Assembly (NCBI GenBank): GCA_027492735.1
Contig: JAPUEE010000024.1
Coordinates: forward strand, 1 to 38,254
Direction: 5' to 3'
DNA length: 38,254 nucleotides
DNA from: Candidatus Saccharimonadota bacterium
GTDB taxonomy: Bacteria > Patescibacteriota > Saccharimonadia > Saccharimonadales > Saccharimonadaceae
Position numbers and translations under genes: made by a program. Positions 3,284-6,125 of this stretch are shown here, piece after piece; position 1 is the stretch's first letter, and the number at the start of each line of letters is the position of its first letter. The notes under the pieces were generated by a model, which was given only the letters and a program-made list of their open reading frames with translations, searched no databases and was not told the DNA's origin.

Positions 3284-4203
3284 ATCTTGCCGATCGCAAT
3301 GGAAATCAAGGCCCACGCTTCGGTTGGGCGAGACAGCTTGATTTTTGCATCAGTGGCAGCTAACAGTGCCGCGATTTGCTTTACACGTTCTTTTTGCTGT
3401 TCTGAGTCCCCTATACGCCGCGCTACTTCACCCATTTTTGACAATTGGAAAGGGTGGATTTTTAATGTTGATGCTACATCTCTCTGACCAGCCCCATGTA
3501 TGGCAGCAGCGAGAGCAAACGCCTGGCTCGCTAATAGTCCCATAAACTTGTTCGGGTCTTCGAGGCTTGCTAATTTTTCTAGCTCCACAAGAGCCACTTC
3601 GCGCCGGCCCGAGATGACTTGTTCAAAAATCATAAATGCATTGGCTTCTAGATTAGGCTCGACATACTGACGCACCAGCTGTGGTGTTACTACTTGGTCG
3701 AGCGTTCGTAATTTAGCAACTTCCATGGCTAAACGCCACTCGTCACCGCCCGTTGCACTAATCAATTCATCAACTGCCGTTGATTTGTATTCTAGACCGC
3801 TAGACGCTAGTTCTTGGCGAAGCCAGTCAGCCAGCTCATGACCTTTTAATAACTGAAACTCTCTGACCGACGCAGAAGCTTTTAACGCCTTGAACGTCTT
3901 GGTTCGTTTATCTGGAGAAGTAACTGCTATTATTAGAGAGGTCCCGTCAACTACTCGATCCAGATTTTCGCCCACGGTCACCCAGGCAGCACTATTACGA
4001 TCGAGATCCTCGAGCACAATGAGCCGCTCGGGGGCAAATAGATTTACATTAACGATATCAGCAATGAGACGCTGTGGTTCAATATCGCTACCGTCCATCT
4101 GAGTAACCGCATCAGTACCATGCTTCCTCGTAAAAGCTGCCACTAATTCATCAACTGCCCGTTTCCTGAGCAAGTTATTTTCACCATAATAAAGATAGAT
4201 CAC
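3280..4203 (-). CDS. holA: DNA polymerase III subunit delta
   Basis: The clamp-loader delta subunit opens the beta clamp for loading onto DNA. The N-terminus (MIYLYYGENNLLRKRAVDELVAAF) is the usual delta start, followed by the divergent AAA+ fold (VNLFAPERLIVLEDLD, about 52-67; GTSLIIAVTSPDKRTKTFKAL) and the C-terminal collar helices (LEANAFMIFEQVISGRREVAL; AFALAAAIHGAGQ; KIHPFQLSKMGEVAR). At 307 residues it is slightly shorter than E. coli HolA (343). Its ATG overlaps the stop of the upstream unknown gene by 4 nt, so the two are co-transcribed. Confidence 0.88.
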   Translation of the reverse strand: MIYLYYGENNLLRKRAVDELVAAFTRKHGTDAVTQMDGSDIEPQRLIADIVNVNLFAPERLIVLEDLDRNSAAWVTVGENLDRVVDGTSLIIAVTSPDKRTKTFKALKASASVREFQLLKGHELADWLRQELASSGLEYKSTAVDELISATGGDEWRLAMEVAKLRTLDQVVTPQLVRQYVEPNLEANAFMIFEQVISGRREVALVELEKLASLEDPNKFMGLLASQAFALAAAIHGAGQRDVASTLKIHPFQLSKMGEVARRIGDSEQQKERVKQIAALLAATDAKIKLSRPTEAWALISIAIGKI

Positions 4204-4718
4204 GACTCTATTGTACTGGATTCCCTTGTCGTCATAAAGTCAGGAGATAAGATGCCTTCGTTAATGGCGAGCGCTGCGATCGCTTTTTGCTCGCCCGAAT
4301 AGTCAAACATGCCGCCGTCTTCTGGGTGAAAACCAACTTTATGATCTGGATATAGCAGCCCGAGGATAGCATATTGCGGCATCACTGGTGTCGCCTTGAA
4401 TGTTGCGTCATTATTCATATTTGATTCCATAGCCTCTACCCGATCCTCAAATGAACCTACGTTTTCATCTTTGTAATAGCGAGCTCGAATAGTATCGAGG
4501 AATTGTTCGCGTCTAGCCCTGACAGCTCCGACCAAGGCAAGTCTCTCTGTTATATCGAGATGACTAGCCAATTGACTAGCTAGTTCTGCTAATTGATAGC
4601 GATCACGGCTACCCGCATAAGCATCCCACCTTACAATCTCATCTTTTGTCCGGGCCTCATCAAAGTCATCCGGTACTGTATCGGTGATGATTGAAAAGCT
4701 TCCTACATCTATAGCCAT
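4200..4718 (-). CDS. Unknown protein translated with holA
   Basis: I do not recognise this 172-residue protein. It is soluble and acidic, without signal peptide or membrane segment. A helical middle (YQLAELASQLASHLDITERLALVGAVRARREQFLDTIRARYY, about 41-82) is followed by a loop and a C-terminal part with MPQYAILGLLYPDHKVGFHPEDGG. The overlap of 4 nt with holA implies co-expression and perhaps a replication link, which is inference. No Shine-Dalgarno is visible before the ATG; an extended -10 (TGT-TATAAT, 4756-4748) lies 29 nt upstream. Confidence 0.7.
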   Translation of the reverse strand: MAIDVGSFSIITDTVPDDFDEARTKDEIVRWDAYAGSRDRYQLAELASQLASHLDITERLALVGAVRARREQFLDTIRARYYKDENVGSFEDRVEAMESNMNNDATFKATPVMPQYAILGLLYPDHKVGFHPEDGGMFDYSGEQKAIAALAINEGILSPDFMTTRESSTIES

Positions 4719-4747
4719 ATCATTGTATTTTCTAAGATTACTTAACC

Positions 4748-4774
4748 ATTATAACACTTGTAGTCAATAGTCAA
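4748..4774 (-). promoter_or_regulatory. Promoter of the unknown gene-holA operon
   Basis: Minus strand TGT-TATAAT (4756-4748) is an extended -10. A TTGACT lies at 4774-4769 (spacer only 15 bp), with a second TTGACT copy 7 bp closer. The extended -10 is the strong part of this call. Confidence 0.5.
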
Positions 4775-4812
4775 GGGGGTTCTCAGTAAATTAACCATCT
4801 TTGGTGTATAAT

Positions 4813-4842
4813 TTGACACTTTGAGATTAACTGTGCTATTAT
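4813..4842 (+). promoter_or_regulatory. Strong promoter of the structured RNA/leader
   Basis: A perfect -35 TTGACA (4813-4818), 18-bp spacer, and extended -10 TGC-TATTAT (4834-4842). Transcription should start near 4849-4850. It is among the best promoters in the window yet lies 166 nt before the next start codon, so it serves the RNA described in the next entry. Confidence 0.8.
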
Positions 4843-4848
4843 TTGCTC

Positions 4849-4994
4849 TACAATGACCCATTTAGCCAAAGCGCAGAACTTGTTGTCCCTCAGCCTACCC
4901 GGGCTGTGCTTTAGCAATACTGAAGCCACCACCTAAACGGTGAACCGCACAGCCCTCAGACAAAGTGGTTTCAGCGAATGAAACTACTTTTTTT
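4849..4994 (+). ncRNA. Candidate small RNA or cis-acting attenuator, unclassified
   Basis: About 145 nt between a consensus promoter and an intrinsic terminator, with no protein of its own. Visible pairings: a perfect 9-bp helix GGGCTGTGC (4901-4909) with GCACAGCCC (4947-4955), inside it TTTAG (4910-4914) with CTAAA (4933-4937) or CACC with GGTG. Alternatives exist: GGCTG (4902-4906) can pair instead with CAGCC (4891-4895), and CTGAAGCCAC (4920-4929) can pair over 10 bp (one G-U) with the 5' arm of the terminator (4965-4974). Such mutually exclusive helices are the mark of an attenuator or riboswitch for the gene at 5016. A free-standing sRNA is the alternative. I could not match it to 6S, SRP, tmRNA or a named riboswitch. 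Confidence 0.6.
4964..4994 (+). terminator. Rho-independent terminator of the structured RNA
   Basis: Stem AGTGGTTTCA (4964-4973) with TGAAACTACT (4979-4988), one G-U pair, 5-nt loop GCGAA, followed by seven T (4988-4994). It lies 21 nt before the ATG of the 76-residue protein, so read-through decides whether that gene is expressed from the 4813 promoter. Confidence 0.85.
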
Positions 4995-5015
4995 AAATCT
5001 CGAAAGGATATCACT

Positions 5016-5246
5016 ATGAATGCAGATAAGTCTAGTTATGCTGAGCCGATCGTAAATGGCACCATTAAAGATGTACATGGAAATGAATATGAGGTCGTAA
5101 ATGGTAAAGTAGGTCGTCTTATCGATCCATCCCATGATCGGCAAGAGATGATGGTTGACGATCGACCACATCATTCAGGAGAAGCTGGGGCAACTGCAGC
5201 GAAAATGACTGTTGAGATGGTCTACCAGGCCGACCGTAGTGTATAA
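5016..5246 (+). CDS. Unknown 76-residue protein downstream of the structured leader
   Basis: I recognise no family. The ATG at 5016 is preceded by AAAGGAT, 8 nt upstream; an in-frame GTG at 4965 is inside the terminator stem and is not a credible start. The protein is hydrophilic with a short repeat-like beta pattern (IVNGTIKDVHGNEYEVVNGKVGRLI, 11-35; VNG occurs twice) and a His/Asp-rich middle (SHDRQEMMVDDRPHHSGEAG). No membrane segment. Its TAA directly abuts the stop of mutM on the other strand with no base between. Expression probably depends on the attenuator-like leader. Confidence 0.6.
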   Translation: MNADKSSYAEPIVNGTIKDVHGNEYEVVNGKVGRLIDPSHDRQEMMVDDRPHHSGEAGATAAKMTVEMVYQADRSV

Positions 5247-6125
5247 CTACAAGGATTTGGGTGGCTGTTGACATACCGGACAAATATGCGTACCGCGTCC
5301 AGCCACTCGAATTTTTTCGATAATAGTACCGCAACGTGGGCAGGCTAGCCCCTCTCGACGGAAAACATTAACGAACAAATCGAGATAGTTACCCCTAGAT
5401 CCATCAGCCTTGACGTAATTTTGCATCGAGCTGCCGCCAGACTCTATCGATGTAGTCATGGCCGTAATTGCCCCTTTTAGTATGGATGCTAGCTGACTAT
5501 CCGTGAGATCGCGAACTCTCGTCTCTGGATGGATCTTGGCTAGCCACAAAGCCTCGTCAGCATAAATATTGCCGATACCGGCCACGACAGACTGATCCAA
5601 AATTGCTGCCTTGATCGTCGTATTATTACGTCGACGGACTCTGGTTAGGAATTCTTTTGCGGGATGACCAATTAATGGCTCTGGGCCAAGTTTACTAATA
5701 AATTCTAGTTCATCAATGGTAATCGTCGGTAGTAATTTGATCCAACCAAATTTTCGCTGATCGTTAAAAAATAGCTTTGCGCCGTCATCGAGAACGAAAT
5801 AAACTCTGGTTGATGTATTTGGTAGGTCGTCAACGAATGACTCATTTGGATGGCCGCCGGCCCAATTTTCGGCACCACGCAAGATTATCTGTCCTGTCAT
5901 CTTTAAATGGAGTACTAACGAATAGTCGGTCGATAAATCTATCATCAATACTTTGGCGCGGCGGCGAATGTTTTTTATCGTGGATCCGACAATAAATTGT
6001 TTTATGTCTTCGCTGCTCCCATGAAACGATTTTTCGTTCGAAATAACGACATCCATAATTTGACGCCCAACCAGTATCGGTTCTAAACCCCGACGAATTG
6101 TCTCGACTTCTGGTAGTTCAGGCAT
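5247..6125 (-). CDS. mutM: Formamidopyrimidine-DNA glycosylase (Fpg/MutM)
   Basis: This bifunctional glycosylase/AP lyase removes 8-oxoguanine and ring-opened purines. The mature N-terminal PELPEVETIRRGL gives the catalytic Pro2 and Glu3; LVLHLKMTGQ holds the conserved Lys. The helix-two-turn-helix (LDQSVVAGIGNIYADEALW) and the C-terminal zinc finger are intact: CPRCG and, 20 residues on, CPVCQ. The 292-residue length is normal. The start overlaps the end of the HAD gene by 8 nt. It is the last gene of the ftsK-dut-HAD-mutM unit and, with dut, gives that unit a role in keeping the DNA free of damaged or wrong bases. Confidence 0.96.
   Translation of the reverse strand: MPELPEVETIRRGLEPILVGRQIMDVVISNEKSFHGSSEDIKQFIVGSTIKNIRRRAKVLMIDLSTDYSLVLHLKMTGQIILRGAENWAGGHPNESFVDDLPNTSTRVYFVLDDGAKLFFNDQRKFGWIKLLPTITIDELEFISKLGPEPLIGHPAKEFLTRVRRRNNTTIKAAILDQSVVAGIGNIYADEALWLAKIHPETRVRDLTDSQLASILKGAITAMTTSIESGGSSMQNYVKADGSRGNYLDLFVNVFRREGLACPRCGTIIEKIRVAGRGTHICPVCQQPPKSL

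Follow-up and report, generated by a model that had tools for sequence, protein, structure and literature searches.

Leader attenuators and the locus under study

The attenuators of the enterobacterial trp, his, leu and ilv systems combine a leader open reading frame (ORF), in which a codon run for one amino acid is found, with a protecting helix, an antiterminator and a terminator that are mutually exclusive, and in the Leu and Phe leader families of Rfam one leader scaffold serves more than one amino acid. In Actinobacteria, leaders with Leu or Ile/Val/Leu runs are described ahead of leuA, ilvB and leuS, and the LEU element is portrayed as a pseudoknot in which the Leu run pairs with the Shine-Dalgarno box of leuA (PMC1262725). 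The Corynebacterium ilvB-II motif is described as having a conserved upstream ORF rich in branched-chain amino acids, for which attenuation of a biosynthetic gene has been proposed (PMC10272879).

The locus considered here lies in a stretch of 38,254 nt from a Candidatus Saccharimonadota bacterium (assembly GCA_027492735.1, contig JAPUEE010000024.1), which is referred to in full as the window and belongs to a genome (G000) of 0.82 Mb in 26 contigs, 97.6% complete. An element on its plus strand is very probably a ribosome-mediated, leucine-responsive transcription attenuator with a leaderless leader ORF. The ORF, its codon run and the mutually exclusive helices were computed from the sequence, as were the covariation of these helices and the match between codon run and pathway in relatives; for the locus itself, we infer that the leader would be transcribed and translated, that the ribosome would stall on it and that leucine would be the signal.

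The leader in the window

The features of the leader are as follows.

4813-4842, plus strand: predicted promoter, with a -35 box TTGACA (4813-4818), an 18-nt spacer and an extended -10 box TG-n-TATTAT (4837-4842)
4853-4936, plus strand: leaderless leader ORF, 27 codons and TAA (MTHLAKAQNLLSLSLPGLCFSNTEATT), in the frame common to relatives
4880-4906, plus strand: specifier run, with Leu codons TTG (4880), TTG (4883), CTC (4889), CTA (4895) and CTG (4904)
4901-4909 (GGGCTGTGC) with 4947-4955 (GCACAGCCC), plus strand: helix P1, nine perfect pairs, from fold and covariation; its 5' strand forms the codons G-L-C
4910-4914 with 4920-4924, plus strand: helix P2, from fold and covariation; contains part of the antiterminator 5' strand
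4927-4930 (or 4930-4933), CACC, with 4939-4942, GGTG, plus strand: helix P3; the leader stop codon TAA (4934-4936) lies in its loop
4920-4929 with 4965-4974, plus strand: antiterminator, ten pairs including one G-U, mutually exclusive with P2 and the terminator
4962-4994, plus strand: intrinsic terminator, a stem of 12 pairs at 4962-4990 and seven T at 4988-4994

An earlier note on this DNA had described a near-perfect promoter, a 9-bp perfect helix, a 10-bp antiterminator and a terminator 21 nt ahead of a small gene, which starts at 5016, and each of these was recovered at its place, one antiterminator pair being G-U. The promoter matches 11 of 12 consensus letters, with TG ahead of the -10 box; across the region, five promoter-like sites occur against 5.2 expected from shuffles, which is no excess. 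Transcription is predicted to start at about 4849-4850, and the leader AUG lies 3-4 nt further on. What the earlier note overlooked was the leader ORF, whose stop codon falls inside the RNA's own hairpin and whose codon usage by itself is not gene-like (-0.154 bits per codon). The window therefore holds a short ORF with start and stop codons ahead of a gene (4853-4936), five codons for one amino acid, leucine, within 4880-4906, and an antiterminator and intrinsic terminator that cannot coexist. Leucine as the signal rests on this codon run, because what the switch precedes is an orphan and not a leucine gene.

The window sequence alone makes a moderate case for a structured switch, and it is the relatives that settle the matter. 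A helix as long as P1 appears in 9 of 500 shuffles, an antiterminator pairing as strong in 10 of 2000 shuffled leaders and a run as long in 101 of 2000, and the fold z-score is -3.34 with the terminator and -1.97 without it. Two partners had also been proposed for GGCTG at 4902-4906; the second, CAGCC at 4891-4895, does exist in the window, yet it is retained in only 53 of the 93 family members described below and is therefore not a defining part of the element. The window fold shows in addition a 5' pairing of 4868-4876 with 4904-4913, which lies outside the proposed model.

A family of related leaders

BLASTN of the leader against 394 genomes of the taxonomic family returned, besides the window, only short matches that were taken as chance (250 genomes at E ≤ 1, own included; nine contexts inspected and the ORFs of two read), and true relatives were missed by it. 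A covariance model of the window leader alone (R1) reached, at E ≤ 1, 7 of 198 genomes (the window's own among them, and two of the seven taken as chance). It found matches in four other genera (G033, G028, G045 and G135), with best E-values between 1e-8 and 4e-5, and several copies are present in two of these four genomes. In each of these first relatives, a short ORF begins 6-12 nt beyond a -10 box and ends inside the hairpin, with leader peptides such as MINFNQRNFSLLLGLMLPRLCFSLIEARA, MANNQLDNLVVVVAVPRLCFSLIEARA, MNLNRTQFFFNFVFPRLCSDLIEARV and MSFNHRYYLTYGYRRLCLELIEARA, beside MTHLAKAQNLLSLSLPGLCFSNTEATT in the window. A model of eight sequences (R2) gave 15 matches in 8 of the 394 genomes of the taxonomic family and, across the order, matches at E ≤ 0.01 in 73 of 294 genomes and 49 of 144 genera, where about three chance matches are expected at E 0.01 per genome.

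Re-scoring of the listed R2 matches gave 94, of which 93 are distinct, the duplicate (L171 2872-2975, identical to L194) having been dropped before all counts of 93. Four weak members, namely L238 (which has an in-frame stop), L239, L241 and L242, may be false but are counted among the 93, and L149, L150 and a minus-strand window match were left out of alignments A3 and A4. The window's genome has one attenuator copy, and genome G028 carries five (Leu twice, Val, Phe and Tyr). A second match in the window's genome (E 0.245) looks by eye like a tRNA.

Nothing convincing was found outside the order in 192 genomes of the wider phylum, some of them from the order itself. Six of these genomes matched, three being the window and two known members; the matches in G027, G602 and G705 (E 0.0015-0.0088) were taken as chance, and the two that were translated are without the leader motif. 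A further model (R3) run over 27 of 80 named MutM loci gave one weak match (E 0.085), searches of phage and plasmid DNA gave only short matches that were taken as chance, and a pattern scan of viral contigs found nothing.

The leader reading frame in the family

Nearly all members share one ORF plan, in which a run of a single amino acid, mostly Leu or Ile and in a few members Phe, Tyr or Val, is followed by ...GLCFSMVEA*. Over the stretch that reaches from 12 codons upstream of GLC to 8 codons downstream of it, the leader frame is open in 89 of the 93 members, against 21 and 6 for the other two frames. In 71 of 93 members, a start codon in a frame open to GLC follows TAnnnT at a distance of 5-12 nt, against 2 and 4 in the other frames. 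Leu accounts for 37.5% and Ile for 10.6% of the nine codons ahead of GLC in the leader frame, compared with 11.7% and 2.6% in the next frame and 3.9% and 2.2% in the remaining one. When the dominant residue is defined as one that fills at least three of these nine codons, it is Leu in 62 members, Ile in 11, Phe in 3, Tyr in 2 and Val in 1, with 14 mixed.

One member departs from the plan: in L163 (G028 C12 14595-14694), the Tyr run is in the ATG frame and the usual ...EAR ending is in another frame, which may reflect a frameshift, an assembly error or a loosened constraint.

Covariation of the competing helices

A covariance-model check with homologous leaders, which the earlier note had proposed, was run and revealed compensatory changes in the helices and in the antiterminator. 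In the eight-sequence alignment, 90% of antiterminator cells are paired and 5 of the 10 pairs have changed on both sides, a number of double changes equalled by 0 of 500 shuffles, and slid versions of the pairing reach at most 52% paired; for P1 and P2 together, 92% of cells are paired and 4 of 14 pairs are doubly changed (1 of 500 shuffles). In the 93-member alignment, which was fitted to P1, P2, P3 and the terminator, double changes occur at all 26 pairs of these helices (0 of 500 shuffles), and all nine P1 pairs are doubly changed in some member, with 97.0% of cells paired. P3 is present in relatives with many pair types and varies freely.

The antiterminator pairing was not fitted in the 93-member alignment. 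The mean duplex energy of members with their own partner strand is -14.05 kcal/mol, against -11.83 kcal/mol with the partners of other members, and none of 5000 permutations in which the partners were re-dealt reached the own pairing, in a test that ignores kinship. The own partner is better than the median of the others in 67 of the 93 members and not in 26. Examples of co-changed variants are ACUGAGGCC/GGCCUCAGU, ACCGAGACC/GGUUUCGGU and GUUGGAGCC/GGCUCCGAC. The earlier note was right to see competing terminator and antiterminator helices in front of a small gene, and these are conserved and covary in relatives.

The stretch GGTGAACCGC at 4939-4948 resembles the T-box motif GGUGGNACCGCG, so that a T-box element might be considered; the likeness is one of letters only, the stretch is not conserved in the eight-sequence alignment and a search up to E 10 gave no T-box match, which leaves this reading a negligible probability.

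Codon runs and downstream genes

A tblastn search places leuA, ilvA, ilvB or ridA no more than about 2.6 kb downstream of 34 members, and for part of the 34 the gene products were confirmed with Pfam and NCBIfam. Leu runs precede leuA, and Ile/Val runs precede ilvA, ilvB or ridA, the last being a gene linked to isoleucine synthesis. At least two Ile/Val codons among the nine are found in 0 of 16 members in which leuA comes first and in 16 of 18 in which an ilv gene or ridA does (Fisher p 7e-8, in a test that ignores kinship), the exceptions being L224 and L229. The Phe run FFFFFAF of L162 precedes a DAHP synthase gene (TIGR00034, 244 bits, cut-off 173), the Tyr run of L163 precedes a 232-residue protein with a weak dehydrogenase-like match, and small ORFs come next after the runs of Val and Tyr and after most of those of Phe (L152, L151, L160, L154 and L156).

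These results bear on two other readings of the element. The earlier note had seen the logic of a riboswitch or attenuator, and in the former case P1, P2 and P3 would form an aptamer whose ligand shifts the balance between terminator and antiterminator. A three-way junction and switching helices that covary would fit a riboswitch, and the absence of an Rfam match would suit a new class; however, the conserved core consists of codons of the one frame that stays open in 89 of 93 members, P3 is freely variable, the part that changes with the pathway is a codon run upstream of P1 and not a pocket, and codons plus helices explain the conservation. A ligand-binding riboswitch is accordingly very unlikely, and a leader that is an open frame with a one-amino-acid codon run, matching the downstream pathway in relatives, is better read as an attenuator. 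The element might also be a free-standing, terminated small RNA of about 145 nt that acts elsewhere, for which its own promoter and terminator would be expected and the ORF behind it would be a bystander. No promoter-like site was found between the terminator and this ORF on the same strand, though, and the antiterminator pairing, unneeded in a pure small RNA, has been preserved by co-change, while relatives precede genes of matching pathways; this reading is highly improbable.

The first ORF after the attenuator has at most 160 residues in 68 of the 93 members, L178 among them being a cut-off LeuA. At least 18 of the 68 have a gene for biosynthesis or for an M20 peptidase close by and at least 24 have only rplJ, and for 26 none of the sought genes is present in the downstream DNA, which is short for some.

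The first ORFs of L169, L179, L188, L191, L192, L220 and L224 encode recurring small proteins, 56-78 residues long, that contain ...GTE...P... and end in a sequence resembling FxANxP or FWxxGV. Most of these loci have rplJ downstream of the ORF; several of the proteins are related to each other by phmmer, and the one compared with Pfam (L191) has no match there. An attenuator and a small ORF lie before rplJ-rplL in L168-L170, L176, L179, L188-L189 and others, and at other loci ilvA, leuA or an M20 peptidase gene stands between the attenuator and rplJ-rplL. It looks as if the biosynthetic gene has been lost and the attenuator retained at these rplJ-rplL loci.

Proposed mechanism and fold tests

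In the attenuator model for the window, RNA polymerase would start just ahead of the AUG of the leaderless 27-codon ORF. With leucine plentiful, the ribosome would reach the stop codon at 4934 and cover 4920-4929, the terminator 5' strand (4965-4974) would pair with its own 3' strand and transcription would stop at about 4994. With leucyl-tRNA scarce, the ribosome would stall on the Leu codon at 4895 or at 4904, where it covers the P1 5' strand; with P1 and P2 blocked, 4920-4929 would be free to pair with 4965-4974, so that the terminator would be pre-empted and the 76-codon gene transcribed.

Folding was computed with the 3' edge of the ribosome assumed to lie 14 nt downstream of the first nucleotide in the A-site codon. 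In transcripts whose 3' end lies at 4976-4984, the antiterminator probability in the window is 0.99-1.00 with a stall at codon 15 or 18 and falls from 0.44 to 0.16 with a stall at codon 13; with a stall at codons 10-11 it is 0.00. The complete terminator wins in every ribosome state, and the decision must therefore be kinetic. Across the family, masking of the P1 5' strand raises the mean antiterminator probability from 0.35 to 0.90, with full switching in 48 of the 89 members tested (the four excluded from the 93 have an antiterminator run shorter than 6); the 41 that do not switch fully fail to do so mostly because the antiterminator is already favoured.

When the window leader is folded with no ribosome on it, the antiterminator prevails (0.97-0.90) until almost all of the terminator has been made; a leader that is not translated might therefore allow read-through, in contrast to a clean trp-type design. 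This behaviour would suit an attenuator that senses a general failure of translation, such as a block of initiation or the action of antibiotics, rather than leucine, as would a target that is not a leucine gene. Against such a sensor, the codon run shifts with the pathway in relatives, as expected for the sensing of one charged tRNA, and a general response is considered unlikely beside a leucine-responsive one.

In L146/L159 and L148/L161, the predicted folds allow codons at the 5' end of the leader (CTTCAATCAA-like) to pair with the antiterminator strand, possibly as a default-off pairing.

The 76-codon gene and the mutM-holA locus

Two further ORFs accompany the leader.

5016-5246, plus strand: 76-codon ORF with gene-like codon usage, the sole gene behind the attenuator, with AAAGGA at 5003-5008 upstream
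4200-4718, minus strand: 172-codon ORF with gene-like codon usage (z 5.04), part of an insert of about 1 kb between mutM and holA

The 76-codon gene is probably real, its codon usage being gene-like against nucleotide shuffles (z 3.38). Its protein has no relative in the 100 genomes searched (own genome included), further searches of genome contigs, phages, plasmids and viral contigs gave its own genome or nothing, and no match was obtained in Pfam, NCBIfam or PHROGs. A single-sequence AlphaFold model of it is weak (pLDDT 65.7, pTM 0.31). Relatives of the 172-residue protein were sought in 198 genomes (own included), and only its own genome was returned.

In the relatives L036, L039, L040 and L042, mutM is directly followed by holA, and in L034 an extra ORF lies between them. 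About 1 kb separates the two genes in the window, where the insert consists of the minus-strand 172-codon ORF and then the divergent leader with the 76-codon ORF; the stop codons of the latter ORF and of mutM abut.

Probable amino acid sensing in reduced bacteria

Ultrasmall Saccharibacteria-type bacteria are thought to depend on hosts for many amino acids (PMC8406219). A widespread, hitherto unlisted attenuator family would read out which amino acids these bacteria sense and which genes respond. The orphan and dozens of comparable small ORFs gain a testable expression condition, and for each copy the signal can be read beforehand from its codon run. In G028, a single leaderless scaffold occurs with different amino acid specificities within one genome. 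It is a tentative and somewhat doubtful proposal that this one scaffold is a re-targetable reporter of amino acid starvation, used in up to five copies per genome with the codon run swapped, and that its main output in many lineages, the window included, has ceased to be a biosynthetic enzyme and is a small, fast-evolving protein made only on shortage, which perhaps draws nutrients from the host.

Comparison with known systems

The attenuator family represents regulation that is known in kind; what is new is the family itself, which is not in Rfam, and its design. The earlier note could match the element to no named class, and among 4227 Rfam families, only a tRNA reaches the gathering threshold in the window, three sub-threshold matches to 4720-5260 at E up to 10 include no leader, and only a tRNA reaches the gathering score in ten member loci. 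No report of such an attenuator was found in the Saccharibacteria/Patescibacteria literature among open-licence papers. The Leu and Phe leaders of Rfam share with the family the use of a scaffold for several amino acids, but no Rfam leader reaches the gathering score in the window or the ten loci.

The ilvB-II motif follows a similar upstream-ORF logic; it belongs to another lineage and, as described, is tied to ilvB alone (PMC10272879). The LEU element as described (PMC1262725) differs in that here the run precedes P1 and control would be exerted by an intrinsic terminator. The present family resembles the enterobacterial attenuators in its leader run of one amino acid and its mutually exclusive protector, antiterminator and terminator. 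It differs from them in a leaderless ORF whose AUG lies a few nucleotides after the predicted 5' end, in one conserved scaffold whose codon run is switched between Leu, Ile, Val, Phe and Tyr, and in its many small-protein targets and its occurrence in reduced bacteria of the Saccharibacteria type.
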